Shown here: in pieces, positions 2,536 through 17,467 of the stretch
Layout of the letters: every line of letters begins with the position of its first letter
Numbering within the stretch: position 1 is the stretch's first letter
NCBI GenBank assembly: GCA_030625575.1
Contig: DAOUQP010000007.1
Span: 1 to 36,651, forward strand
DNA from: Eubacteriales bacterium
GTDB taxonomy: Bacteria > Bacillota > Clostridia > Peptostreptococcales > Acidaminobacteraceae
Reading direction: 5' to 3'
Length of the DNA: 36,651 nt
The notes under the pieces: model-generated
What the model saw: the letters and a program-made list of their open reading frames with translations, nothing else
The model's database searches: none
What the model was told of the DNA's origin: nothing
Position numbers and translations under genes: made by a program

Positions 2536-3555
2536 ATGAAAAATTCTAGTAGGAGAATTTTTTTATTTTTTATTTTAATTAGTATTTTGTTAATCGCTAC
2601 AGCGTGTAGTGGTGGTACTGACGAGGTAATAAAGGATAAAGATGTAGTAATATTTGCAGATGCAGGCTGGGATAGTTTAAGACTTCATAACGCTATTGCC
2701 GCATTTATTCTAGAAAATGGATATGACTATGAAACAGATGTGATTCCAGGTTCTTCAGCTAATCTTCTTGAAGGAATGGTAGTAGGCGATGTAAGTGTTG
2801 AAATGGAAATGTGGCAGGATAATATGCCTATTTACGCTGAATACAGAGAAGATGGTAAAGTAATTGAACTTGGAACGAATTTCGATGACAATGATCAAGG
2901 ACTATATGTTCCTAGATACTTGATTGAAGGGGATGCTGAAAGAGGTATTGAAGCTTTAGCGCCTGATTTAAAAACTATTGAAGATTTGAAAAAATATTCT
3001 GATTTATTCCCAGATTTAGAAGATCCGGGTAGAGCAATTATAATTAATGGACCACCATCATGGGAAGTAACAACTATTATTGGAATTAAAGCTGCTTATT
3101 ATGGATTAGAGGATCAGTACAATATAGTTGGTTCAGGTACATCTGCAGCGTTGGCAGCATCTTTGTCAGCAGCTTATGAAAAAGGTGAACCTTGGGTAGG
3201 ATACTATTGGGAACCAACGTGGATATCTGGTAAGTATGATTTAGTACTTTTAGAAGAAGCTCCTTTTGATGAAGCGTTATGGACTGAAGAAGCTCATTAT
3301 GCTTGTGCGTTTAAACCAGTAGATGTAACAATCATTGCTAATCCTGAGTTTGTTCAGAATAATCCTGAAGTTGTTGAATTCTTGAAAAATTATCATACTT
3401 CATCTGCTTTAACTGCGAAGGCTCTTGCTTACATGCAGGAAAATGAGGCTGAGATTGAAGAAGCTGCAGAATGGTTCTTAAAAGAAGAAGAAGAACTTTG
3501 GAAAACATGGGTACCTGAAGATGCATATAATAAGGTAATGGATGCATTGAAATAA
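2536..3555 (+). CDS. opuAC: Glycine betaine/proline-type ABC transporter substrate-binding lipoprotein
   Basis: 339 residues. Basic N-terminus, hydrophobic helix and lipobox ATAC with Cys24 mark a membrane-anchored lipoprotein on the outside of the cell. The mature part is an OpuAC/ProX-type binding protein: FADAGWDSLRLHNAI near the start, and an aromatic-rich GYYWEPTW segment typical of the cation-pi cage that holds quaternary ammonium compounds. It is first in a three-gene operon and is followed by a hairpin that may favour its expression over the membrane subunits. Ligand choice (glycine betaine, proline betaine, carnitine, choline) cannot be read from sequence alone. Confidence 0.88.
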   Translation: MKNSSRRIFLFFILISILLIATACSGGTDEVIKDKDVVIFADAGWDSLRLHNAIAAFILENGYDYETDVIPGSSANLLEGMVVGDVSVEMEMWQDNMPIYAEYREDGKVIELGTNFDDNDQGLYVPRYLIEGDAERGIEALAPDLKTIEDLKKYSDLFPDLEDPGRAIIINGPPSWEVTTIIGIKAAYYGLEDQYNIVGSGTSAALAASLSAAYEKGEPWVGYYWEPTWISGKYDLVLLEEAPFDEALWTEEAHYACAFKPVDVTIIANPEFVQNNPEVVEFLKNYHTSSALTAKALAYMQENEAEIEEAAEWFLKEEEELWKTWVPEDAYNKVMDALK

Positions 3556-3562
3556 GAATTGA

Positions 3563-3593
3563 TTTAGCAGACCTTTTGGTCTGCTAAAATTTT
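3563..3593 (+). terminator. Intra-operon hairpin, partial terminator or mRNA-stabilising stem
   Basis: Perfect 11-bp stem TTTAGCAGACC (3563-3573) / GGTCTGCTAAA (3578-3588) with a TTTT loop and then only four T. It lies between the binding-protein gene and the permease gene. The weak T run suggests partial read-through or 3'-end protection, giving more binding protein than permease. Confidence 0.65.
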
Positions 3594-3605
3594 GGGAGTG
3601 ATATT

Positions 3606-4457
3606 ATGAGTGAATTTCCTCAGTTGATCGATATGAAAATTGGAGATGTTGTAGAGGATTTTGTTAAATGGTTAACTGTTAATCATTCGGGAGTATTTCA
3701 AAGTATAAAAGCTGGAATTTTGTCTGTGCTGTTAAAAATGCAGGACTTTTTAAATTGGGTTCCTTGGTTTGTAATTATTTTAATTATTTTTTTTGTAGGA
3801 TGGAAAGTAAAAGATCTGAAATCGGGTTTAATATTTACAGCGATGCTTATTGCAGTAGGGATGATGGGTTATTGGGATGAAACAATATTGACGATTTCTG
3901 TTGTAATAACAGCAGTAATTATTTCTTTAGTACTCGGAATACCTTTAGGCATTATATCTGCTTATAAAAAGAGAGTAGATTCCATTGTTAGACCAATATT
4001 GGATGCCATGCAGACCATGCCGAGTTTTGTCTATCTTATTCCGGCAATCATGTTATTTGGTTTAGGTACAGTTCCTGCGGTATTTGCAACGACGATTTAT
4101 TCTTTACCACCAGTTATAAGACTTACAAATTTGGCCATTAAAAGTGTTTCAAAAGAAATTAAAGAAGCTGCTTATTCTTTTGGTCCTACAACTTGGCAAA
4201 TTTTAACGAAGGTAGAAATTCCTCAGGCCATGCCAACTATTATGGCTGGTGTCAATCAGACGACAATGATGGCTATGGCAATGGTTGTGGTTTCTTCGAT
4301 GATTGGCGCAAAGGGTCTTGGTTATAGCGTTTTAATAGCAATAAACAGAACTGATATAGCTATGGGATTCGAGGCGGGAATAAGTATTGTTTTTGTAGCG
4401 ATAATTATTGATAGATTAACCCAATCGATTGGGGAAAAATTCAAATACGATAAATAG
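3606..4457 (+). CDS. opuAB: Betaine-type ABC transporter permease
   Basis: 283 residues with several transmembrane segments (about 50-66, 74-90, 94-118, 140-165, 212-235 and 245-270). The cytoplasmic coupling loop begins EAAYSFGPTTWQIL at 187 and includes the EAA-type EIPQAMP, the contact with the ATPase. The family is OpuAB/ProW, integral membrane subunits that carry solute using ATP from the next gene. The N-terminal 50 residues are amphipathic and precede the first membrane segment, as in ProW. ATG with RBS GGGAG just upstream; the 12-bp gap to the ATPase gene indicates cotranscription. Confidence 0.9.
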   Translation: MSEFPQLIDMKIGDVVEDFVKWLTVNHSGVFQSIKAGILSVLLKMQDFLNWVPWFVIILIIFFVGWKVKDLKSGLIFTAMLIAVGMMGYWDETILTISVVITAVIISLVLGIPLGIISAYKKRVDSIVRPILDAMQTMPSFVYLIPAIMLFGLGTVPAVFATTIYSLPPVIRLTNLAIKSVSKEIKEAAYSFGPTTWQILTKVEIPQAMPTIMAGVNQTTMMAMAMVVVSSMIGAKGLGYSVLIAINRTDIAMGFEAGISIVFVAIIIDRLTQSIGEKFKYDK

Positions 4458-4469
4458 GAGGATGCTTCA

Positions 4470-5642
4470 ATGGAAAAAATAAGAGTAGAAAATTTGACAA
4501 AGATATTTGGAAAGCATCCACACAAAGCTCTGCAACACCTTAAAAATGGTATGAATAGAGAAGAAATTTCTAAAATGACAAATCATACTGTCGGTGTTGG
4601 CAATGCGAGTTTTTCTGTCAACGAAGGTGAAACATTTGTAATTATGGGGCTTTCGGGAAGTGGAAAGTCAACTTTGATAAGGTGTATGAACTTATTGAAT
4701 AAACCGACAGATGGAAAGATTTTTGTCGATGATGAAAATATTTTAGAGTACAACATCAAAGAGTTAAGAGAGTATAGACAAAATAAAGTAGCTATGGTTT
4801 TTCAGCATTTTGGACTTTTCAGTCACAAAAATGTTGTTGAAAATGTAGAATTTGGACTTGAGATAAAAGGCGTAAAAAAAGAAGAACGATATAAAAAGAG
4901 TAAGGAAATGCTAAAAGTAGTAGGGCTGGAAGGTTGGGAAAATCATAACATTTCACAACTTAGCGGTGGTATGAAGCAGAGAGTTGGACTTGCAAGAGCT
5001 CTTGCCAACGACCCCGAAATAATGTTGATGGATGAACCTTTTAGTGCTCTTGATCCACTGATTAGAAGAGATATGCATGATGAATTACTGGATATCCAAT
5101 CGAAGTTTAAAAAGACTATAATTTTCATCACTCATGATGTAAATGAAGCGTTTAAGCTCGGTGATAGAATTGCGGTGCTAAAAGACGGTGAAATCATTCA
5201 GATCGGTACACCTGAAGAAATTCTCGATAATCCAGAGAATGAGTATATAAGCAATTTTATTCAGGATATCGATCGTAGTAGAATTTTGAAAGCTGAAAAC
5301 ATCATGAGAAAATCTGTAATGAAATTGGGAAGATTAACAAAACCAAAAATTGCTTTAGGAATAATCGACGAATCTGATTTTGAATACGGCTTTATTATAG
5401 ATAGGGAAACTGGAAAAGTTCAAGGTGTTATTGATGCTGATGACGTTCTAAGAGCGGGTAAAGAAAAAATAAACATTGAAGATGTAATGCATACGAATTT
5501 TAAGGCAGTTAATAAAAATGCTTATGTAAAAGAAATCATAGAACTTGCTCTTGAAACAAAATATCCAATTGCAGTTATTGATGACGATGAAAGATTTGTA
5601 GGAAGAATTCATCGTGGAACCTTACTGAAATCTTTAGTTTAA
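4470..5642 (+). CDS. opuAA: Betaine-type ABC transporter ATP-binding protein with CBS domains
   Basis: 390 residues, the usual OpuAA/ProV length. Walker A GLSGSGKST at 60-68, Q-loop Q112, signature LSGGMKQ at 164-170, Walker B with D188 and E189, and H-loop H222 are all intact. After about residue 277 come tandem CBS-type repeats (FIIDRETGKVQGVIDADDVL; AVIDDDERFVGRIHR). In OpuA-type transporters the CBS pair senses ionic strength or binds c-di-AMP, which would add activity control to the transcriptional control by BusR. RBS GGAGG precedes ATG 4470. No terminator follows; the his promoter begins 7 bp after the stop codon. Confidence 0.92.
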   Translation: MEKIRVENLTKIFGKHPHKALQHLKNGMNREEISKMTNHTVGVGNASFSVNEGETFVIMGLSGSGKSTLIRCMNLLNKPTDGKIFVDDENILEYNIKELREYRQNKVAMVFQHFGLFSHKNVVENVEFGLEIKGVKKEERYKKSKEMLKVVGLEGWENHNISQLSGGMKQRVGLARALANDPEIMLMDEPFSALDPLIRRDMHDELLDIQSKFKKTIIFITHDVNEAFKLGDRIAVLKDGEIIQIGTPEEILDNPENEYISNFIQDIDRSRILKAENIMRKSVMKLGRLTKPKIALGIIDESDFEYGFIIDRETGKVQGVIDADDVLRAGKEKINIEDVMHTNFKAVNKNAYVKEIIELALETKYPIAVIDDDERFVGRIHRGTLLKSLV

Positions 5643-5648
5643 AAACAC

Positions 5649-5677
5649 TTGCATAATTATTAACTCGATGATATACT
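5649..5677 (+). promoter_or_regulatory. Sigma-A promoter of the his operon
   Basis: TTGCAT (5649-5654) and TATACT (5672-5677) with a 17-bp spacer. Expected start near 5684, about 28 nt before the leader peptide and 240 nt before hisZ. Confidence 0.8.
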
Positions 5678-5711
5678 TATTCAAATTAAGAATTTAACAG
5701 GAGTAGATGAA

Positions 5712-5774
5712 ATGTTATCTAAAATATCATATTTAGTACAATTACATCATCATCATAGATTAAAGGGTTTGTAA
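5712..5774 (+). CDS. hisL: his operon leader peptide (HHHH)
   Basis: A 20-codon frame: ATG 5712, stop TAA 5772-5774. It contains four consecutive His codons, CAT x4 at 5745-5756 (local peptide VQLHHHHRLKG). A good RBS AGGAG (5699-5703) lies 8 nt upstream. It sits between the his promoter and a strong terminator immediately upstream of hisZ. That is the arrangement of ribosome-mediated transcription attenuation as in the enterobacterial hisL: shortage of charged tRNA-His stalls the ribosome at these codons and changes the folding downstream. It is not homologous in sequence to the enterobacterial peptide. Confidence 0.88.
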   Translation: MLSKISYLVQLHHHHRLKGL

Positions 5775-5898
5775 GAATGGACTGAAAAAGAGTTCATAGA
5801 TGCAAGCTCTAGTTGCTTTGTTTAAAGAGGGCTTGAATCTATGATGGAAAAGTAATAAATATACTTACCATATGGGTTTAATGCCCATATGGTTTTTT
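5775..5898 (+). promoter_or_regulatory. his attenuator: competing hairpins and terminator
   Basis: The terminator has 10-bp arms ACCATATGGG (5867-5876) / CCCATATGGT (5884-5893) and six T. Upstream, arm 5794-5810 pairs with 5826-5844 (TCATAGAT and CAAGC with their complements, plus TCT/AGA). A smaller hairpin ATGGACT (5777-5783) / AGTTCAT (5791-5797) overlaps its left arm. The right arm can also pair with 5751-5761 over the His codons (11 bp), and 5829-5847 can pair imperfectly with 5868-5886, breaking the terminator. No T-box core sequence is present. Confidence 0.75.
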
Positions 5899-5922
5899 AA
5901 TTTTTTGGATGGAGGAAATAGT

Positions 5923-6873
5923 ATGCAATTTAAAAGTGTTTTAGAAGAACTAGAGGTAACTAAATTCAGAAAAAATGTGGAGAGAGAGTTAGAGGATTAT
6001 TTTGAAGATGGTGGCTATTGGATGATTGAACCGAAAATCTTTCAAAGTTACGATGAGTTTGTCTGTTCAAACCTCAGAACGAATAGTAAGAAAACGGTTA
6101 AGGTGCTTTCGGGTAATTCGGAAGTATATATATTAAGACCTGATATTACAATGAATATCTTGAGAAAGATTTTTAGTAAATGGGAAAACGACAAACCTTT
6201 AAAGGTCTATTATAATTCTAAAATTTATCTAAATAATGAGAATTATAATATCAAGGAACAAAGACAAATGGGAATTGAATATTTAGGAGAAGATTCTTTA
6301 TTGGCAGATCAAGAGATGATAACCATGGCTGTCAACCTGATGAAAAAAGTCGATCAACCATTTATTTTAGAACTAGGCTCAAGTAAATATTTGGATAGTT
6401 ATTTTGAAGAAATCAATATTGATATTGAACTTGAAAATAAAATAAAAAATTATATTGCCAAGAAGAATAAACATGGGCTAATAAGTTTATTGAAAAAAAA
6501 TGATGTAAAAAGCATGTTGTTGGAAAACATCTTATCTATGCAAGGAGATATGGAAGCAGTTATTGATCAGGCGAGAAAATATCCTATGAATATAGAGATG
6601 CAAAATGCTTTAAAGGAATTGGAAGATTTAAAGGATATCTTTGCTAGTAATAAAATGATTCCATACATTCATTTCGATCTATCTATGATTGCCGATTTAG
6701 ATTATTACGATGGAATCATATTTAAAGGATATTATTTTGAATCGAATAAGAAAATATTAAGCGGTGGAAGATATGATCGTTTAACTGAAAAGTTTGGCAA
6801 AAAAGCTTCAGCTATAGGATTTTCAGTAGATATGGATGAATTTGTAGGGTTGATGCTAAAGGAGGCGAAATGA
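5923..6873 (+). CDS. hisZ: ATP phosphoribosyltransferase regulatory subunit
   Basis: 316 residues from ATG 5923. An in-frame upstream ATG at 5872 lies inside the attenuator stem and has no RBS, whereas GGAGG at 5911-5915 is well spaced for 5923. The protein is a catalytically inactive histidyl-tRNA-synthetase homologue: it retains the class II features VYILRPDITMNIL and GGRYDRL but lacks the anticodon-binding domain. HisZ pairs with the short HisG to form the active, histidine-feedback-regulated first enzyme of the pathway. It is shorter than a full synthetase (over 400), as expected. Its stop codon overlaps the start of hisG. Confidence 0.9.
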   Translation: MQFKSVLEELEVTKFRKNVERELEDYFEDGGYWMIEPKIFQSYDEFVCSNLRTNSKKTVKVLSGNSEVYILRPDITMNILRKIFSKWENDKPLKVYYNSKIYLNNENYNIKEQRQMGIEYLGEDSLLADQEMITMAVNLMKKVDQPFILELGSSKYLDSYFEEINIDIELENKIKNYIAKKNKHGLISLLKKNDVKSMLLENILSMQGDMEAVIDQARKYPMNIEMQNALKELEDLKDIFASNKMIPYIHFDLSMIADLDYYDGIIFKGYYFESNKKILSGGRYDRLTEKFGKKASAIGFSVDMDEFVGLMLKEAK

Positions 6874-7493
6874 TGGATAAATTGACGATAGCCCTTGCAA
6901 AGGGCAGATTGGCAGAAGAAGGATTGAAGTTATTTGAGAAAAATAATTTAGTTCCAAGTATAGATAAAGAATCAAGAAAACTCAAGTTTACCAACGATGA
7001 AAAAAATATAACTTTTATTCTTGTAAAACCATCTGATGTAGTCACATATGTAGAAAAAGGTGTTGCCGATATAGGAATAGTTGGGAAAGATGTGCTCTTG
7101 GAATCTGAAAGCGATGTTTATGAAATTATGGATTTGGGTTTTGGAAAATGCAAATTTTCAATAGCGGGATTTAAAGATCAATCGATATTCAAGAAAAATG
7201 AAGTGCTGAGGATTGCTTCGAAGTATCCCAATTATGTTTATAAAATTTTTAAAGAAAGAGATCAAAAAATTGAAGTCATTAAATTGAATGGTTCGGTTGA
7301 ACTTGCTCCGATTATGGGACTTGCAGATGTTATAGTCGATATTGTCCAAACCGGAAGCACTTTGAAAGCTAACGATTTGGTAGTGCTGGAAGAATTAGAA
7401 GATATAAGTGCAAGACTTATTGCAAATAAAGTCAGTTATAGATTCAAGTTCGGGTTTATAGAGCAAATAGAAGAAATTTTAGGAGGGAAATAA
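6873..7493 (+). CDS. hisG: ATP phosphoribosyltransferase, short-form catalytic subunit
   Basis: 206 residues: the short form that lacks the C-terminal regulatory domain and needs HisZ. It condenses ATP with PRPP to give phosphoribosyl-ATP, the committed step. Visible motifs are the N-terminal LTIALAKGRLAEEG and the PRPP-binding region ADVIVDIVQTGSTLKAN. Two ATGs are in frame at 6870 and 6873. The RBS AGGAGG (6860-6865) is 4 nt from the first and 7 nt from the second, so 6873 is preferred. It is translationally coupled to hisZ. Confidence 0.93.
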   Translation: MDKLTIALAKGRLAEEGLKLFEKNNLVPSIDKESRKLKFTNDEKNITFILVKPSDVVTYVEKGVADIGIVGKDVLLESESDVYEIMDLGFGKCKFSIAGFKDQSIFKKNEVLRIASKYPNYVYKIFKERDQKIEVIKLNGSVELAPIMGLADVIVDIVQTGSTLKANDLVVLEELEDISARLIANKVSYRFKFGFIEQIEEILGGK

Positions 7494-7494
7494 A

Positions 7495-8781
7495 ATGATT
7501 AAATACTTTAACGCACAAAATGATATGGATAAGATTGAGAGACTTATCGCGAGAACTCAGATGGAATCGGAAGACATCATAATTAAAGTCAACGAGATTA
7601 TCAAAGATGTTAGAGAAAATGGAGATAAAAGCATTGGTAAATATACTTTAAAATTTGATGAAGTAGATTTAGAAAATATGAAGGTAACAGATGAAGAATT
7701 TAAAGAGGCAAAAGAGAATATAGATCCGAAGTTGAAAAGTTCATTAGAAAAAGCTATTAAAAATATTACTGAATTTCATAAAAAGCAGATAAAAAAGAGT
7801 TTTACATTTAAAAAAGGTAGCGATATTATCTTAGGACAATTAATCAATCCCATTGAAAAAGTCGGTATTTATGTTCCTGGAGGAACGGCATCTTACCCTT
7901 CGACTGTTATGATGAATGTTATTCCTGCCAAGCTTGCCGGAGTAAAAGATATTGTAATTACAACACCGGCTAATAAAACAGGAAAAATTAAGGATTCTGT
8001 TCTAGTGGCAGCTGATTTGCTCGGAGTGAAGAGCGTGTATAAAATTGGTGGAGCTCAAGCTGTAGCAGCTTTATCGTTTGGAACAGAAACGATACAAAAA
8101 GTAGATAAAATCGTCGGGCCTGGTAATATATATGTTGCAATGGCTAAAAGAAGTGTTTCTGGAATCGTTGGAATCGACATGATTGCAGGTCCTAGTGAAG
8201 TATTGATACTAGCTGATGAATCGGCAAACCCTAAATATATTGCAGCTGATATGATTGCTCAAGCTGAACATGACGAAAGAGCGGCGTCTATTGTCGTAAC
8301 TGAATGTGAGCGATTAGGCGAAAAAATTAAAGAAGAATTGAAAACTCAATTGAGTAAACTAGACAGGCGAGAAATAGCTGAAAAGGCACTTACTGATTAT
8401 GGAGCAATAATTTTAACTAGTTGCAAAAAAGAAACTTTTGAGATTGCGAATAGATTGGCGCCGGAGCATTTAGAAATTTTAACTAAAGATCCTTTTGCAG
8501 ATTATAAGAAGATTAAAAATGCCGGGGCGATATTCTTAGGAGAATACACACCAGAACCTGTTGGAGATTATTTTGCAGGACCAAATCATACCCTACCGAC
8601 TAGTAGAACTTCTAGATTTTCTTCAGCGCTTTCGGTGGATGATTTTTATAAAAAAACATCTTTGTTATATTACAGTGAAAAAGCGCTTAAGGGTGCAGGG
8701 GAGGATATCATTAGACTTGCAGATGACGAATCTTTAACAGGGCATGCAAATTCTATAAAAGTTAGAATGGAAGGATTTTGA
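7495..8781 (+). CDS. hisD: Histidinol dehydrogenase
   Basis: 428 residues, the normal length. It catalyses the last two oxidations, histidinol to histidine with two NAD. Seen: the conserved GPSEVLILAD, the zinc-ligand region MIAQAEHDERA (Gln and His), the catalytic Glu-His of LAPEHLEIL, the Asp/His region VGDYFAGPNHTLPTS, and the C-terminal TGHANSIKVR with the last zinc His. RBS GGAGGG just upstream; it starts one base after the hisG stop. No anomalies. Confidence 0.96.
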   Translation: MIKYFNAQNDMDKIERLIARTQMESEDIIIKVNEIIKDVRENGDKSIGKYTLKFDEVDLENMKVTDEEFKEAKENIDPKLKSSLEKAIKNITEFHKKQIKKSFTFKKGSDIILGQLINPIEKVGIYVPGGTASYPSTVMMNVIPAKLAGVKDIVITTPANKTGKIKDSVLVAADLLGVKSVYKIGGAQAVAALSFGTETIQKVDKIVGPGNIYVAMAKRSVSGIVGIDMIAGPSEVLILADESANPKYIAADMIAQAEHDERAASIVVTECERLGEKIKEELKTQLSKLDRREIAEKALTDYGAIILTSCKKETFEIANRLAPEHLEILTKDPFADYKKIKNAGAIFLGEYTPEPVGDYFAGPNHTLPTSRTSRFSSALSVDDFYKKTSLLYYSEKALKGAGEDIIRLADDESLTGHANSIKVRMEGF

Positions 8782-8783
8782 TT

Positions 8784-9797
8784 ATGAAAAAATATGTTAG
8801 GAAAGCTGTTTTAGATTTAAAAGCCTATGAAGTGAATGATGCAGGCTATTCGATTAAATTGGACGCCAATGAGGGAATAGATTGGTATGATGGATTAAAT
8901 AGATATCCGGATAATCAAGCTGTCAAGCTGGTAAAAGCTTTAAGTGATGTGACGGAAAAAAAAGAAAGCGAATTGATAGTGGGAAATGGTTCTAGTGAAT
9001 TGATTGAACTTATCCTAAAGACTTTCCTTGAGCCACAAGAATATGTTGTAAGCATTGATCCGACTTTCAGTATGTATAAAATTTTTACCACTATCTATAA
9101 TGGAAAATACGAAGGGTATAAATTAGTCGATAATCAATATTGCGACATAGAAGATTTTATTGAATTTATTAGTAAAATGAAGGCTAAAATCGTTATACTC
9201 AGCAATCCGAATAATCCGACTGGAAGTTTTATTGAAAAAGAGTCCATTGAAAAAATTCTCAAAGGATCTGATGCGATAGTTGTAATAGATGAAGCGTATA
9301 TCGAGTTTTCCTCTGGTAGTGTTATTGACTTGATCAACGAGTATGAAAATTTGATTGTACTTAGAACGTTTTCAAAAGCTTACGCAGTGGCTGGTATAAG
9401 GCTTGGTTATTTAGCGGCGAATGAGTCGATAGTTAAATATATAAAGAGGGTGAAATCTCCTTATAATTTAAATGCTATTTCCCAGGAGATAGGTTTAAAA
9501 GCCCTTGATAGTATCGATGTTGTGAATAAAAACATCGAATTGATTAAAGAAGAAAGAGAGAAAGTTTGGAAATCGCTTTATAAGCTTGGATTAAATCCAA
9601 TCCCATCATATGCAAATTTTATCCTTTTTCAAGGCGACGATAAATTGAATGATTATCTTAAATCTTTTGGCATTTTAGTAAGAGAATTTGGCGGTGATTT
9701 AAAGGGATATATTCGCGTGACTATTGGAACTCGAGAGGAGAACGATAAGGTTATAGAAAAAATCGGGAGGTATTACAATGAGAAGTGCCCAAATTGA
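8784..9797 (+). CDS. hisC: Histidinol-phosphate aminotransferase
   Basis: 337 residues from ATG 8784. A TTG at 8778 overlaps the hisD stop but is worse placed relative to the RBS GGAAGGA (8769-8775). PLP aminotransferase class I/II fold: SNPNNPTGSF, VVIDEAYIEFS, the PLP-lysine motif RTFSKAYAVAGIRLGY, and the C-terminal Arg region YIRVTIGT. It transfers the amino group from glutamate to imidazole-acetol phosphate. Its last 20 bases overlap hisB. Slightly short relative to many HisC proteins but with all motifs. Confidence 0.93.
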   Translation: MKKYVRKAVLDLKAYEVNDAGYSIKLDANEGIDWYDGLNRYPDNQAVKLVKALSDVTEKKESELIVGNGSSELIELILKTFLEPQEYVVSIDPTFSMYKIFTTIYNGKYEGYKLVDNQYCDIEDFIEFISKMKAKIVILSNPNNPTGSFIEKESIEKILKGSDAIVVIDEAYIEFSSGSVIDLINEYENLIVLRTFSKAYAVAGIRLGYLAANESIVKYIKRVKSPYNLNAISQEIGLKALDSIDVVNKNIELIKEEREKVWKSLYKLGLNPIPSYANFILFQGDDKLNDYLKSFGILVREFGGDLKGYIRVTIGTREENDKVIEKIGRYYNEKCPN

Positions 9798-10356
9798 GAG
9801 AAAAACCAAAGAGACTGATATTAATCTGATTTTAAATTTAGATGGGACAGGCAAAGGCGAAATTGATACGGGAATAGGATTCCTGGATCACATGTTGGTA
9901 AGTCTAAGTTTTTATAGCGGGTTTGATATTTTTCTTAAGTGTGAAGGTGACCTACAGGTAGATGATCATCACACTGTTGAGGATATAGGAATAGTATTAG
10001 GGCAAGGTTTGTTAAAGGCTATTGGTGATAGGCGGGGAATTAAAAGATTCTCTAGTATGACAACACCTATGGATGAGAGTTTAGCTGCAGTATCATTGGA
10101 TATAGGCAATAGACCATATCTTGTTTATAATTTGGAATTCAGCAGAGAAAAAATCGGACAGATGGATACACAAAATTTCAAAGAATTCTTCAGAGCGTTT
10201 GCGTTTGAATCGAGGATGAACTTGCATGTAAACCTTCTATACGGTGAAAATGAACATCATAAGATAGAAGCTGTTTTCAAAAGTCTGGGAAGGGCACTAA
10301 AAGATGCCGTAAAGGTTATGGATGATCAAATTACATCGACAAAAGGGGTTTTGTAA
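9778..10356 (+). CDS. hisB: Imidazoleglycerol-phosphate dehydratase
   Basis: 192 residues, monofunctional (no histidinol-phosphatase domain as in enterobacteria). The metal-binding motifs are present: GFLDHMLVSL, DDHHTVEDIGI and ENEHHKIEAVFK. It dehydrates imidazole-glycerol phosphate to imidazole-acetol phosphate. RBS GGGAGG overlaps the end of hisC, and the two genes overlap by 20 bp in different frames, so translation is probably coupled. Because the phosphatase domain is missing, another gene must supply histidinol-phosphate phosphatase. Confidence 0.95.
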   Translation: MRSAQIERKTKETDINLILNLDGTGKGEIDTGIGFLDHMLVSLSFYSGFDIFLKCEGDLQVDDHHTVEDIGIVLGQGLLKAIGDRRGIKRFSSMTTPMDESLAAVSLDIGNRPYLVYNLEFSREKIGQMDTQNFKEFFRAFAFESRMNLHVNLLYGENEHHKIEAVFKSLGRALKDAVKVMDDQITSTKGVL

Positions 10357-10976
10357 TGAATGTTATAGTTGATTATGGTTTAGGGAATATAAACTCTGTT
10401 CAAACTGCACTAAAAAAAGCAGGGATAGATACAGTGATTACAGATGATAAAAAGAAAATAGAAAATGCAGAGTTTGTTTTATTGCCAGGAGTAGGAGCAT
10501 TTAGGGATGCAATTGGACTTTTGAAGGAAAAAGGACTGGATATTGCGATAAAGAAATTTGCGGATACCGGAAAACCGTTGGTCGGAATATGCCTTGGTAT
10601 GCAGCTTCTATATGAAAAAAGTTATGAATACGGTGAATATGACGGACTCGGTCTTATACCTGGTGAGATAGTTAAATTAGAAAAAGAAAAAAAGATTCCC
10701 CATATGGGTTGGAATAATCTAAAAATCAAAAAAGATGATGAACTACTCAAGTATTTAAAACAAGATATGTATGTATATTTTGTACATTCATACTATGCAA
10801 AGTCTTCAAATGATGAAATGCTGGCCTACACTGAATATGGCGAAATTATTCCTGCGATAGTTAGAAAAGGAAATGTGATAGGTTTTCAATTTCATCCAGA
10901 AAAAAGTGGACAGGTTGGAGCAAATTTATTAAAAGCCTTAGGAGAGATGATAAATGATTATATTTCCAGCAATTGA
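10356..10976 (+). CDS. hisH: Imidazole glycerol phosphate synthase, glutaminase subunit
   Basis: 206 residues, class I glutamine amidotransferase. Triad seen: nucleophile Cys79 in GICLGMQLL, and His180 and Glu182 in FQFHPEKSG. It supplies ammonia from glutamine to HisF. The start overlaps the hisB stop by one base (TAATG). Its end overlaps hisA by 23 bp. Confidence 0.95.
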   Translation: MNVIVDYGLGNINSVQTALKKAGIDTVITDDKKKIENAEFVLLPGVGAFRDAIGLLKEKGLDIAIKKFADTGKPLVGICLGMQLLYEKSYEYGEYDGLGLIPGEIVKLEKEKKIPHMGWNNLKIKKDDELLKYLKQDMYVYFVHSYYAKSSNDEMLAYTEYGEIIPAIVRKGNVIGFQFHPEKSGQVGANLLKALGEMINDYISSN

Positions 10977-11661
10977 TATAAGAAATGAAAAATGTGTGAG
11001 ATTAACGCAAGGCGATTATTCCAAGATGACTGTGTATGGAGTTGACCCAGTTGAAGTTGCACTTAAATGGCAATCGAAGGGCGCTGAGTATTTGCATATA
11101 GTAGATTTAGATGGAGCTAAAGATGGAAAAAGAGTCAATGGGGACGTTATTGAAAAAATTGTGAAAAGTACTGAGATTCCAATTCAAGTTGGCGGTGGCA
11201 TCAGAGATACAAAGGCAGTTGAAGAGTTGCTGAGTAATGGTGTTAGTAGAGTGATAATAGGTACAGGAGCGATAAAAGACCTAAAGTGGCTTAGTGAACT
11301 TGTTAGAGTTTATGGAGAAAAAATTTGTGTTTCTATTGATGCTAAAAATGGATTCGTCGCTACTGATGGGTGGGAACAAATTAGTGAAATCAATGCAGTG
11401 GATTTTGCTGTGAATTTAGAAAATATAGGTGTTAGGACGATTGTTTATACAGATATTCAAAAAGATGGAATGTTGAAAGGGCCTAACTTCAAAATGTATG
11501 AAGAATTGATGAAAAAAGTGAATTTAGATATTATTGCATCTGGAGGCATAACAACAATAGAAGATGTTGAAACTCTAAAACGCATGGGTGTATATGGTGC
11601 GATTATTGGGAAAGCCTTATATGATGAGAAAATAAAGTTGGAGGAGGCGATTTCGTGTTGA
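10954..11661 (+). CDS. hisA: ProFAR isomerase (phosphoribosylformimino-AICAR-P isomerase)
   Basis: 235 residues, TIM barrel. It carries out the Amadori rearrangement of ProFAR to PRFAR. Catalytic Asp8 (IFPAIDIRN) and the second Asp in CVSIDAKNG are present, along with phosphate-binding glycines IQVGGGIRD and IIASGGI, giving the half-barrel symmetry shared with HisF. A GGAGAG RBS lies within hisH. It overlaps hisH by 23 bp and hisF by 7 bp. Confidence 0.95.
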
Positions 11662-12413
11662 CTAAGAGAATAATTCCATGTCTTGATGTAAGAAATGGAA
11701 GAGTTGTAAAAGGAAAAAAATTCGATGATATCATAGACGTAGAAGACCCTGAAATTCTTGGTAAATATTATAGTGATATGGGTGCTGATGAATTAGTGTT
11801 TTACGATATCACTGCTTCTAACGAGAAAAGAGGAATATCCTTAGAATTTGTTGAAAAGGTTGCAAAGAAAATAAACATTCCGTTTTGTGTTGGTGGAGGA
11901 GTTAAGACTATAGATGATTTTGTTGAGATACTTAGAAAAGGAGCAGATAAGGTTTCTGTAAATTCTGCTGCTGTCAAAAATCCTGATCTTATAAAAGAGG
12001 CATCTGAAAAATTTGGCAATCAATGTGTTGTACTATCTATTGATGCGAAGAAAGTTGATGATAACAAATGGCATGTCTTTGTAAATGGAGGAAGAACCGA
12101 TACAGGTCTCGATGTAATTGAATGGGCAAATAAAGGAACTGCTTTAGGAGCGGGGGAAATTGTCGTTAACAGCATAGATGAAGACGGTATGAAAAAAGGT
12201 TATGATATAGAGCTTTTGAAGCAAATTACCGATATTGTAAATGTGCCAGTTATTGCATCGGGTGGGGCTGGCGAGATGAAACATTTCTATGATGCTTTAA
12301 AATCGGCTGATGTAGATGGGGTGTTAGCCGCATCGGTATTTCATTACAAAGAAATATCAATAAAGGAATTAAAAGATTATCTAAAAAAGAAAGGTATCGA
12401 GGTGAGGATCTAA
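11655..12413 (+). CDS. hisF: Imidazole glycerol phosphate synthase, cyclase subunit
   Basis: 252 residues, TIM barrel, starting at GTG 11655 with RBS GAGGAGG upstream. Catalytic Asp11 ([11 protein letters not shown]) and Asp130 (VVLSIDAKK) and the phosphate-binding segments VGGGVKT and IASGGAG are intact. With HisH it makes imidazole-glycerol phosphate and AICAR, linking the pathway to purine synthesis. The stop overlaps the start of the next gene by one base. Confidence 0.96.
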
Positions 12414-13009
12414 TGGATATCAAATACGATGAAAAAGGACTCGTTCCGGCAATTGTTCAAGATGACGCTTCGGGCAAAGTGTTGATGCTTGCCTACATGA
12501 ATGAAGAAGCGGTGAATCTGACAATCGAAAAAAAACTTGCTTGTTATTTTAGTCGCTCAAGACAAAAGCTTTGGCTTAAGGGAGAAACATCCGGTCATTA
12601 CCAACATGTGAAATCTTTTTACTATGATTGTGATAATGATACAATACTGCTAAAGGTGAAACAGATAGGCGTAGCTTGCCATACTGGAAGTTTCAGTTGC
12701 TTTTTTAATAAAGTTTTTGATGAATCATCTGAAGGGAATACTTTAGATAATCTTTATGAAATAATAATGGATAGAAAAATCAATCCAAAAGATGGATCAT
12801 ATACTGCTTATCTATTTAAAGAAGGAATTGATAAAATTCTAAAGAAGATAGGTGAAGAAAGTAGCGAAGTCATTATCGGTGCGAAAAACTCAAAAGAAGA
12901 GCTTATTTATGAAAGTAGTGATTTGATTTATCACTTGATGGTTCTTTTAGTTAATGAGGACATAACACTAAGTGATATTTATGGGGAATTGAAAAAAAGA
13001 ATGAAATAA
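12413..13009 (+). CDS. hisIE: Bifunctional phosphoribosyl-AMP cyclohydrolase / phosphoribosyl-ATP diphosphatase
   Basis: 198 residues. Residues 1 to about 110 are HisI, with metal ligands Cys73 (YYDCDNDT), Cys89 and Cys96 in the [12 protein letters not shown] stretch. About 115-198 is HisE, with the MazG-like helical motif [15 protein letters not shown] and a C-terminal [10 protein letters not shown] helix. The protein does steps 2 and 3 of the pathway. It is the last gene of the operon. The next terminator-like hairpin is about 240 bp downstream. Confidence 0.95.
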
Positions 13010-13660: not shown

Positions 13661-14647
13661 TTGAGCTACAAAATCGGTTTAATTTATGATAGGCCACACG
13701 TGGAATATAAAGAAACTGAGGAGGCCAAACACGTTGATCATCAAAAGGAAGTTACAAAAGATGAAATATATAAAATATTGAATACAAAATATAATGTAGA
13801 AAAAATTTTAGTAGATGAAAAAACAATTGAACGATTACTAAAAAGTGAAATTGATTTGGCATTTCTTTTAACCACGGGAATCAGGGGAGAAAGCAGGCAA
13901 TCGCAAATTCCAGCTGTTTTAGAGATGTTGGGAATTCCTTATATAGGTTCAGGAGTTTTGGCACATGCGTTGGCCTTGAATAAGGCTGTTGCGAAAAAGG
14001 TCTTTGATTATCATGATGTTACTACACCTAGTTTTCAAATTTTTTATGGAGTAGAGGAGAAATTGGATTCTGTGATGAAGTTTCCTTTGATTGCAAAACC
14101 CGCTTGTGAAGGTTCTGGATTTGGAATCCATAAGGACAGTGTAGTACATAATGAAATGGAACTAAAAAAGAAAGTAGAGAGTTTACTAAAGGAATATGAA
14201 CCGCCTGTTTTAGTAGAAGAATTTATTGAGGGAAGAGAATTTACAGTAGGCATTATTGGAAATGGAAAGAATAAGATGATACTACCAATTATGGAACTTA
14301 ATTTTGATGATGTCCCAGAAAAATATGGCAGATTTAATACTTTTGAAGTGAAAACAAAATGTGGTGATGAGACTAAGGTGTTTTGTCCAGCACCCATTAC
14401 TAGCGAATTAGAAAAAACGATGAAAGAAAATGTATTAAAGGCATTTGATGCTCTAGGTTGTCGTGATATATCGAGAGTGGATATTCGTGTAAAGGATGAT
14501 AAGCCTTATGTAATAGAGATAAATAGTCTTCCTGGACTTGAACCGCTTTATAGTGATTTACCAAAGATGGCTGAAAAAGCAGGAATTGCTTATGATCAAT
14601 TGATTTTTAAGATTGTAGATACAGCAATAGAAAGAATAAAAGGTTAA
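13661..14647 (+). CDS. D-alanine--D-alanine ligase-like ATP-grasp enzyme
   Basis: 328 residues from TTG 13661, RBS GGAGGGG. The ATP-grasp core matches the Ddl family: IPYIGSGVLAHALALNK (92-108), PLIAKPACEGSGFGI (142-156), VEEFIEGREFTVGI, and the Mg-binding end RVDIRV plus YVIEINSLPGL (283-293). However, the N-terminal EHxVS-type motif of real Ddl proteins is absent, and the substrate loop (usually a YDYxxKY type) reads RFNTFEVKTK. So it probably joins a carboxylate to an amine other than D-Ala. It is first in a three-gene cassette, so a role in a specialised amino-acid-derived compound is more likely than peptidoglycan synthesis. The substrate is unknown. Confidence 0.75.
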   Translation: MSYKIGLIYDRPHVEYKETEEAKHVDHQKEVTKDEIYKILNTKYNVEKILVDEKTIERLLKSEIDLAFLLTTGIRGESRQSQIPAVLEMLGIPYIGSGVLAHALALNKAVAKKVFDYHDVTTPSFQIFYGVEEKLDSVMKFPLIAKPACEGSGFGIHKDSVVHNEMELKKKVESLLKEYEPPVLVEEFIEGREFTVGIIGNGKNKMILPIMELNFDDVPEKYGRFNTFEVKTKCGDETKVFCPAPITSELEKTMKENVLKAFDALGCRDISRVDIRVKDDKPYVIEINSLPGLEPLYSDLPKMAEKAGIAYDQLIFKIVDTAIERIKG

Positions 14648-14681
14648 TTGAGAATGTGAATAATAGATAGGGGGAGATTTA

Positions 14682-15815
14682 GTGAATGAGTATCTATCTA
14701 ATAAAAAGCTGAAGTTTGCTGTTATTGGTGCAGGAAATGGAGGTCAAGCGTTTGCTGGTTATTTAGCGAACAAAGGATATAAGGTTAATTTATATAACCG
14801 AACGATAAAAAAAATAAATGAAATAAAGCAAAGAGGATATATTGATTTAGAAGGCAGTATCACTGGACGGGGAAAATTAGATTTGGTTACAAATAACATG
14901 GAACAAGCGATAAAAAATGTTGATGTTATTATGGTTGTAGTGCCTGCTAGTGCGCATAAATTTATTGCCAACGAGATTGCCCCTTTTGTAACAGAAAAGC
15001 AATATGTTGTATTAAACCCTGGAAGAACAGGCGGAGCATTAGAATTTAAAAATATTATCGAAAGACAAAATTTGTTAAAAAATGTGTGTATTATCGAAGC
15101 GCAAACTTTATTGTTTACATGTAGAGCAGTAGAACAAGGTGAGGTACAGATCTTCAGTAAGAAAAAAGAAGTAAAAGTAGCTGCATTGCCAGCTGTTAAA
15201 AATAATGAATTTATCCATATGATTGGCGATGCTTTTCCGGAATTCACTCTTGTTGAAAGTGTGTTGGAAACAAGTTTCAACAATATAGGAGCTGTATTAC
15301 ATCCAATTGTAACTATATTGAATTGTGGAAGAATTGAAGCTACAAAAGGAGATTTTCAGTTTTATATAGATGGTGTTACCTCATCTGTAGCAAAGATTAT
15401 TGAAGCGGTTGATTATGAACGAATGTCGGTGGCGAAGGCATTAAACGTGGATACTTTCTCATTGAAAGATTGGCTGGAATATACTTATAATGCTTATGGA
15501 GATACACTATGTGAAGCGCTCAATAATACAAAAGCTTACAGAGGAATCAAGGCGCCGAAAAATATAGATACCAGGTATATTTTTGAAGATGTACCTCAAA
15601 GTCTTGTACCGATTTGTGATATGGCAAATCATCTAATGATACGAACTCCAACTATTGATTCCATGATTCATCTAGCGTCTGTTCTTCATAACACAGATTA
15701 TTGGCGAAGTGGAAGAAAGTTAACTGACATGGGGATAGAAGAGTTGTCCCTAGAAGAAATAAAAGAGTTTGTAAAAAATGGTGATATATCAGATTCGAGA
15801 GGAGTGGTGGCATAA
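14682..15815 (+). CDS. Octopine/nopaline dehydrogenase family (opine dehydrogenase-like)
   Basis: 377 residues from GTG 14682, RBS AGGGGGAG 5 nt upstream. An N-terminal Rossmann fold with GAGNGG (16-21) binds NAD(P). A helical C-terminal domain of the octopine dehydrogenase family contains GAVLHP (203-208), whose His207 matches the position of the catalytic His in this family. Known members reductively join the amino group of one amino acid to a 2-oxo acid, making secondary-amine dicarboxylates (opines, or metallophore parts). The 34-bp gap behind the ligase and 1-bp overlap with the B12 gene indicate one operon. The substrates are unknown; no staphylopine-type transporter or nicotianamine synthase homologue is next to it. 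Confidence 0.8.
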   Translation: MNEYLSNKKLKFAVIGAGNGGQAFAGYLANKGYKVNLYNRTIKKINEIKQRGYIDLEGSITGRGKLDLVTNNMEQAIKNVDVIMVVVPASAHKFIANEIAPFVTEKQYVVLNPGRTGGALEFKNIIERQNLLKNVCIIEAQTLLFTCRAVEQGEVQIFSKKKEVKVAALPAVKNNEFIHMIGDAFPEFTLVESVLETSFNNIGAVLHPIVTILNCGRIEATKGDFQFYIDGVTSSVAKIIEAVDYERMSVAKALNVDTFSLKDWLEYTYNAYGDTLCEALNNTKAYRGIKAPKNIDTRYIFEDVPQSLVPICDMANHLMIRTPTIDSMIHLASVLHNTDYWRSGRKLTDMGIEELSLEEIKEFVKNGDISDSRGVVA

Positions 15816-17467
15816 TGAAAAGATATGTAGGAGCAGCAATTGGAAATTGTGTTCATATAGGCGGTGCTGTGAATTTTTTAAGACTTGCAGAAGAAGAAGG
15901 ACACTCTACAGAATTTTTGGGAGCGGCTGTAAGTATAAAAAACCTAATCGATTATGTACTTAAAAAAAAGCCTGATGTGGTAGGTGTTGGATTTAGATTG
16001 ACACCTGATTCGGTAAAACCTCTGTTGAATGAACTTGAAAAAAATATTTATGAGTGCAAATTGGAGAACATCGAGTGGATCTTTGGAGGAACAAAAGCGG
16101 TTGCTGAAATTGCAAAAGAGTATAAATTTTTTTCTAAGATATTTGATGGTACAGAAGATTCATATGAAGTTATTGGATATTTAAGAGGAAGAAATTTAAA
16201 AAAAGTCATAGGCAATGAATCACAAAGTATTATTGAAAGAATAACATCCAAATATCCTCATCCTGTTCTAAGGCATCATTTTGGATTACCTTCTCTTGAA
16301 GAAACTTATGAAGGAATTAAAAAGATTGCAGAGGCAAAAGTTTTAGATGTAATTTCAATAGGACCTGATCAAAATGCTCAAGAAAATTTTTTCGCACCAG
16401 AGAAAATGAATCGTGAATTAGATGGTGCGGGAGGTGTCCCTTTAAGAAAAGTAGAGGATTTTGAAAAGTTATATACAAGTGCTCAAAGTGGGAATCATCC
16501 ACTTTTGAGATGTTATAGTGGAACGTCGGATGTTTTTAAATTTGCCGAGCTTCTTAAAAGCAAAATTAATAATGCGTGGTGTGCTGTACCTCTGAGTTGG
16601 TATAATGTGTTGGATGGAAGAGGTAAAAGAGAAGTTTTCACTTCTATCAGTGAAGGTCAAAGATTGATGAAATGGCATGCAGAAAGAGACATTCCAGTCG
16701 AAGTCAATGAAGCGCATCAGTGGAGTCTTAGAGATGCTCATGATACGATTGGTGTAACCATGGCTTATTTAGCGGCTTATAATGCAAAAAAAATGGGGGT
16801 GAAAACCTACATTGCTCAATACATGTTCAACGTGCCAGCTGGTATGCATCCTAAAATGGATTTAGCAAAGATGCTTGCGAAGGTTGAATTGATTGAAACG
16901 TTAGAGAATAAGAATTTTAAAGTTTTTAGGGAAGCAAGAGCAGGACTGGCAAGTTTGAGTACAGATTTAGATGTGGCAAAGGGTCAGTTGGCAGCTTCTA
17001 CATATTTGGCGATGGCTTTAAAACCTCATATCGTACATGTTGTAGGTTTTTGCGAAGCGGACCATGCGGCAAAACCTGAAGATGTGATCGAGAGTTGTAA
17101 AATTGTAAATGGAGTTATAAAATCAACCTTGCATGGAATGGTAGATATGAAACAAGATAAAGATGTACAGAGGAGAAAAAACGAATTAATAAAGGAAGCG
17201 AAATTTTTGCTGAATACTATAAAATCATTATACGTTGAAAGTAAAGATCCGTGGAGTGATCCTGTTGTGATTGCAGATGCAATTAAAAAGGGAATTATAG
17301 ATGCTCCTCATTTAAGAGGGAACAGAAGCGCTAAGGGAATGGTAGAAACAAGAATTATAGATGGGAAATGCATGGCGTATTCTAGTAATCTAGAGAGAGC
17401 GATATCAGAAGAAGAAAGATTGCTGGAATTATTGAATCCTAAAAAAGATGAGAGTCATACTGCATAA
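15815..17467 (+). CDS. Cobalamin-dependent protein, B12-binding domain fused to glutamate-mutase-E-like barrel
   Basis: 550 residues. Residues 1-125 look like a B12-binding Rossmann domain: CVHIGG at 12-17 stands where DxHxxG is expected, keeping His14 (the lower cobalt ligand) but with Cys for Asp; FGGTK follows at 90-94. About 145-445 resembles the TIM barrel of glutamate mutase subunit E: HPLLRCYSGTSD, the VPLSWYNVLDGRG segment, and a conserved-looking helix TMAYLAAYNAKKMGVK. This predicts an adenosylcobalamin radical mutase acting on an amino acid, with both subunits fused S-E. It starts on the stop codon of the dehydrogenase gene (TAATG), so all three proteins likely act in one pathway. 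The reaction is unassigned. Confidence 0.75.
   Translation: MKRYVGAAIGNCVHIGGAVNFLRLAEEEGHSTEFLGAAVSIKNLIDYVLKKKPDVVGVGFRLTPDSVKPLLNELEKNIYECKLENIEWIFGGTKAVAEIAKEYKFFSKIFDGTEDSYEVIGYLRGRNLKKVIGNESQSIIERITSKYPHPVLRHHFGLPSLEETYEGIKKIAEAKVLDVISIGPDQNAQENFFAPEKMNRELDGAGGVPLRKVEDFEKLYTSAQSGNHPLLRCYSGTSDVFKFAELLKSKINNAWCAVPLSWYNVLDGRGKREVFTSISEGQRLMKWHAERDIPVEVNEAHQWSLRDAHDTIGVTMAYLAAYNAKKMGVKTYIAQYMFNVPAGMHPKMDLAKMLAKVELIETLENKNFKVFREARAGLASLSTDLDVAKGQLAASTYLAMALKPHIVHVVGFCEADHAAKPEDVIESCKIVNGVIKSTLHGMVDMKQDKDVQRRKNELIKEAKFLLNTIKSLYVESKDPWSDPVVIADAIKKGIIDAPHLRGNRSAKGMVETRIIDGKCMAYSSNLERAISEEERLLELLNPKKDESHTA

Follow-up and report, generated by a model that had tools for sequence, protein, structure and literature searches.

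Histidine leaders and the trpB motif

The hisL leader of Escherichia coli and Salmonella (RF00514) carries tandem His codons, and its arms pair either as B:C and D:E or as C:D and E:F, a logic that recurs at the locus described here. T-boxes (RF00230) also read tRNA charging and control an intrinsic terminator, as the present element would, but they bind the tRNA directly and have no leader peptide. In Firmicutes, His leaders were reported in 2010 before hisZ and hisS* of bacilli (Naville and Gautheret, PMC2965389) and in 2022 before the his operons of Clostridioides, Lutispora and others, Peptostreptococcales included (Ashniev et al., PMC9413887). The candidate attenuators of these two papers share with the present locus a short leader with 3–5 His codons, a terminator and an antiterminator, the his operon as target (in 2010 also hisS*), occurrence in Peptostreptococcales, and the lack of a T-box. 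RF04312, the "trpB motif", was described by Narunsky et al. (2024, PMC11109978) as a strong candidate for a riboswitch of unknown ligand; these authors noted an antiterminator in the right shoulder of the P1 hairpin and left a classic attenuator possible.

The DNA analysed here (36.6 kb in all, referred to as the window) contains a his operon for which the original prediction proposed a true hisL-type leader peptide, as an independent or rarely described solution in a Clostridia-like genome. The leader peptide itself holds up, with a His run in the orthologous leaders and no T-box. Of its supposed singularity, the position outside RF00514 stands, but the element has precedent, as His leaders are known in Firmicutes, the same order included, and it belongs to an RNA family shared within that order. 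Compared with the Firmicute His attenuators of PMC9413887 and PMC2965389, the window represents a different family of the order, its leader is tied to RF04312, covariation was used to define and test its arms, and the genes preceded by such leaders in the window's order now include hisS and that of an NhaC-type transporter. The kinship of the His leader with RF04312 appears to be new. The leader peptides, arm B and codon-gene match of RF04312 also appear to be unreported, as judged from an incomplete literature search, without supplements, in which PMC11109978 was the only paper found to name the trpB motif.

The leader and the his operon

The following features precede and make up the operon:
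5649–5677, + strand: promoter-like sequence TTGCAT-17-TATACT
5699–5703, + strand: Shine-Dalgarno sequence AGGAG of the leader
5712–5774, + strand: predicted leader peptide, 20 codons from ATG at 5712 to TAA ending at 5774, product MLSKISYLVQLHHHHRLKGL
5745–5756, + strand: putative sensor, four CAT (His) codons, kept in relatives while the flanks drift
5763–5900, + strand: attenuator RNA matched by covariance model R1 (51.2 bits, E 5e-7; see below)
5923–6873, + strand: hisZ, the first gene behind the attenuator (gene annotation)
6870–13009, + strand: hisG, D, C, B, H, A, F and IE (gene annotation)

The predicted short frame with its own ribosome-binding site and four His codons was recovered at these positions, as was the strong terminator expected before hisZ (5867–5898), which consists of an 11-pair stem (5867–5893) and a T-run. 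The sigma-A promoter that had been proposed at 5649–5677 is plausible: both boxes are present and the -10 box is conserved in relatives, but the -35 box is weak, with 3 of 6 positions as in the consensus, and a strict promoter scan made no call there. Four consecutive CAY codons occur once in the window against 0.12 expected, and the chance of four His in a row in so short a frame is about 2e-7 (His frequency 1.0% in the operon). The hisZ start at 5872 given by the ORF lister was rejected, since this position falls within the terminator, and the start was set at 5923.

Two other regions of the window are worth recording. A Fic-family protein is encoded at 557–1768, upstream of a glycine-betaine transporter set (2536–5642). 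Directly 3' of the his operon, a cluster at 13661–17464 encodes D-Ala-D-Ala-ligase-like and octopine/opine-dehydrogenase-like proteins together with a third protein that has a weak match to a B12-binding domain.

His leaders in related genomes

Leaders with a His run were found before the his operons of 12 genomes of the family (G000, G001, G003, G006, G007, G011, G013, G017, G019, G024, G029 and G034), i.e. in 11 besides the window's own genome, G000. In G011, the leader lies on a different contig from hisD and the gene downstream is cut off. Such leaders are also present in Clostridioides-like genomes, one Tissierellia MAG and another MAG; in the NCBI taxonomy, Maledivibacter and Clostridioides both belong to Peptostreptococcales. 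Among 15 aligned leaders, the run comprises 4 or 5 His in 14 and 3 in the remaining one, and since the scan demanded three His, the apparent conservation of the first three results partly from selection. The flanks drift, although Gln-Leu often precedes the run and Arg often follows it. The run is thus kept while most other codons differ, the pattern that the original prediction had named as a check. No His-run leader was found before hisD in G005, G012 and G033 of the family or in ten further members of the order (L180–L189), and the Rfam search gave no match in the his regions of these leaderless genomes.

His-run leaders also precede hisS genes (L046, L051, L053, L081 and L085) and a gene for an NhaC-type transporter (L058), which suggests that His-tRNA synthetase is under leader-peptide control and that the NhaC-type protein is a His permease. 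One of the genomes carrying a leader, the public MAG "delta proteobacterium ML8_F1" (L090, the same as G029), belongs within the clostridial family of the window, and its name is probably wrong.

Relationship to RF04312

Among RNA families, RF04312 comes closest to the element. It matches the window over its full length at 5793–5904 (47.1 bits, E 1.3e-5), below the gathering cut-off of 59; no Rfam family scored above cut-off anywhere in the window. The published architecture is present, namely P1, a terminator and an antiterminator in the 3' (right) shoulder of P1. RF04312 as published differs in having neither a leader peptide nor an arm B, and the sensor of the window is His rather than Trp. 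Model R1, a covariance model made from Trp, Tyr, Phe and Leu leaders only, with no His leader, finds 19 other His leaders in addition to that of the window and nothing in five his loci that have no leader.

RF04312, which is also said to occur in Fusobacteria, was surveyed in two orders. In the window's order, a Shine-Dalgarno-led frame lies just 5' of P1 in 47 of 50 matches (1–6 in controls on the wrong strand or at shifted positions), and the frame contains an amino-acid run in 42 of 50 (0–1 in controls). In the second order, which belongs to the same phylum and was assigned to Lactobacillales by its small genomes and their gene content, 78 of 148 genomes have matches; 86 of these 87 matches have a leader frame (5–13 in controls), and Trp is present in 82 of the 87 frames (0–5 in controls). 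The class of the leader follows the gene behind it, in counts that are not independent events since several genomes are closely related:
TrpX: Trp in 75/75; TrpB: Trp in 4/4
HisZ: His in 12/12; HisS: His in 6/6
SNF-family transporters: Tyr, Leu or Phe/Tyr
BrnQ: Phe/Tyr in 4/4
TrpY-like ABC permease: Tyr or Phe/Tyr in 14/14
AroE: Phe/Tyr
NhaC-type transporters: Tyr or His

Since leader frames have codons matched to the gene and R1 matches the window, RF04312 is best understood as a single attenuator chassis whose sensor codons can be exchanged. On these sequence comparisons, the family (>900 members) is very likely a modular leader-peptide attenuator of Clostridia and Lactobacillales, with Trp, His, Tyr, Phe or Leu codons matching the gene, and not a riboswitch. 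The reverse reading, in which RF04312 and the window leader are riboswitches whose P1 binds a small molecule (e.g. an amino acid) while the short frame has no role, follows the published candidacy (PMC11109978) and would account for the conservation of P1 and terminator. It is very unlikely, however, as 1) leader frames accompany nearly all matches in both orders (86/87 and 47/50) and few controls, 2) the leader codon changes with the downstream gene, 3) the loop of P1 varies in both length and sequence, 4) arm B, meaningful only if a ribosome occupies the stop codon of the leader, covaries with arm C (see below), and 5) the authors of PMC11109978 were themselves unable to exclude a classic attenuator. 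As a leader-peptide attenuator, this orphan "riboswitch" family would gain a mechanism for which the exchange of a few codons is a sufficient test.

P1 and the terminator come close to being self-complementary, so that many RF04312 matches fell on the reverse strand; their strand was corrected by means of the T-run, and RF04312 annotations therefore need to be checked for strand. Weak matches elsewhere in the window's genome showed no leader and were attributed to chance, and L061, L065, L084, L088, L089 and L255 were discarded as false positives. The HHHPPRV leaders of Bacillus/Gottfriedia (L093 and L094) have B:C arms that look alike by eye but score only 18.5 bits with R1, and no kinship is claimed for them.

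Alternative helices of the proposed attenuator

The arms of the attenuator are as follows:
5764–5783, + strand: arm B (5764–5773 and 5777–5783), pairs with C (folding, B:C covariation)
5791–5810, + strand: arm C, partner of B in the ON state and of D in the OFF state (folding, covariation)
5828–5847, + strand: arm D, partner of C in the OFF state and of E in the ON state (folding, covariation)
5867–5878, + strand: arm E, 5' arm of the terminator and partner of D in the antiterminator (folding, covariation)
5883–5898, + strand: arm F (5883–5893) and T-run, 3' part of the terminator (terminator scan)

Arm B overlaps the leader stop codon (5772–5774), and the segments pairing in D:E are 5836–5847 and 5868–5878. 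In a duplex test on 65 distinct leaders, each arm was paired with its own partner or with the partner swapped from another leader. The own partner was favoured for B:C (z -13.9), C:D (-16.5), D:E (-6.3) and E:F (-22.3), whereas five control arm pairs showed no significant own-partner advantage. In an alignment of 35 non-His leaders, B:C is 87% paired with nine pairs changed on both sides, and D:E is 85% paired with six. A sister species differs from the window by parallel G-to-A changes at 5766 (B) and 5830 (D), both opposite U5808. Covariation over the 65 relatives supports four helices, which include both mutually exclusive sets.

RNA folding agreed with these sets. With a ribosome at the fourth His codon, the free RNA (5767–5881) folds exactly as B:C plus D:E. 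Once the ribosome is placed at the stop codon, the RNA left free (5785–5881) folds as C:D, the full antiterminator being absent. The fold model was used to calculate, for each ribosome position, the probability that E is held in the antiterminator before F is made. For the window, this probability is 0.90 and 0.87 at the first and last His codon, 0.33 at the stop codon and 0.54 without a ribosome. In a set of 114 leaders, the corresponding values are 0.76 and 0.66 at the first and last sensor codon against 0.39 at the stop for His leaders, and 0.74 and 0.72 against 0.43 for Trp leaders, with a stall at the first Trp codon exceeding the stop in 68 of 76 Trp leaders. Since a stall at the sensor codons also gives a higher probability than ribosome-free RNA across the 114 leaders, the effect is more than that of extra free RNA. 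In Tyr-run leaders, the ribosome states barely differ in the model.

Proposed mechanism

The locus has an RBS-led short frame, a cognate codon run and an intrinsic terminator, the hallmarks of a leader-peptide attenuator, and an exclusive antiterminator under ribosome control is found computationally. By sequence comparison, the leader, its sensor codons, the terminator, four covarying helices and the match between codon and gene have been demonstrated. We consider it highly probable that the leader uses the RF04312 chassis to attenuate transcription through the ribosome, with charged tRNA-His as the signal sensed. Under histidine shortage, the ribosome would stall on the CAT run (5745–5756) and leave B free to pair with C; D would then be free to form the D:E antiterminator, the terminator would be blocked and hisZGDCBHAFIE would be transcribed. 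With ample histidine, it would reach the stop codon and cover B, so that C:D and the E:F terminator form and transcription ends. In this scheme, we infer where the ribosome stands, which way the operon responds and that transcription terminates in vivo. Fitted with other codons, the same chassis would control genes of Trp, Tyr, Phe and Leu as well as further His genes.

In the fold model, the complete RNA at equilibrium favours the terminator in all ribosome states; the switch would therefore depend on co-transcriptional folding and on a ribosome that matches the pace of the polymerase. Such pacing has been doubted in some Firmicutes (Johnson 2020, as cited in PMC7858274), and many Firmicutes would rely on it at loci of this kind, a debated point.

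It is very improbable that the element attenuates or terminates constitutively, with the operon controlled by HisR or an undetected T-box and the His run a relic or due to chance. Firmicute his genes are most commonly regulated by HisR (PMC9413887), but HisR/YerC was not found in the window's MAG, which at 73.6% completeness is no proof of absence, and HisR was not found in 38 of 41 genomes of the family (G012 has it). The T-box covariance model (RF00230) gave no match at the operon, although 12 T-boxes score above cut-off elsewhere in the genome; the leader-peptide reading was thus not refuted by this search, which the original prediction had called for. Moreover, the His run is kept in distant leaders and the antiterminator covaries. 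The arrangement used in PMC9413887 to recognize such systems is also present, with 3–5 His codons directly before the his-operon attenuator and HisR not found, the latter limited by the 74% completeness.

That a hisL-type leader was invented independently in this genome alone agrees with the lack of any RF00514 match (E up to 10), but is already contradicted by homologous leaders throughout the family and order and by the end-to-end match of R1, a model without His leaders, so that its probability is next to nil. In leader, arms and sequence, the element differs from hisL. As compared by sequence, the attenuator of the window is, within the order, an inherited or shared RNA family and no one-off.

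Leader codons and transporter substrates

Since the sensor codons match the gene, leader codons would predict the substrates of uncharacterised transporters and could serve as a read-out of their specificity. For example, a Clostridioides-like sequence (L220:2400–9122) contains two tandem ABC transporters with different leaders, FFSSQF and YYYYYSHYF. The binding protein behind the Tyr-run leader, YYYYYSHYF, is almost identical to PDB 6hni, i.e. CD0873, which was shown to bind tyrosine (PMC6816091). The transporter behind FFSSQF corresponds to the CD0876 type, for which tyrosine has only been proposed as ligand (PMC6816091); its leader suggests that the CD0876-type system of Clostridioides handles Phe rather than Tyr.

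In Lactobacillales-like genomes, the chassis was also seen with leaders rich in Phe/Tyr, before a frame for AroE, shikimate dehydrogenase (L273), and before two unassigned binding proteins (L259 and L278). In many transporter leaders (L042, L068, L037, L055 and L067), the first terminator is followed by a second hairpin that resembles it, CACATAG...CTATGTGG, which looks as if it had arisen by duplication of the terminator.
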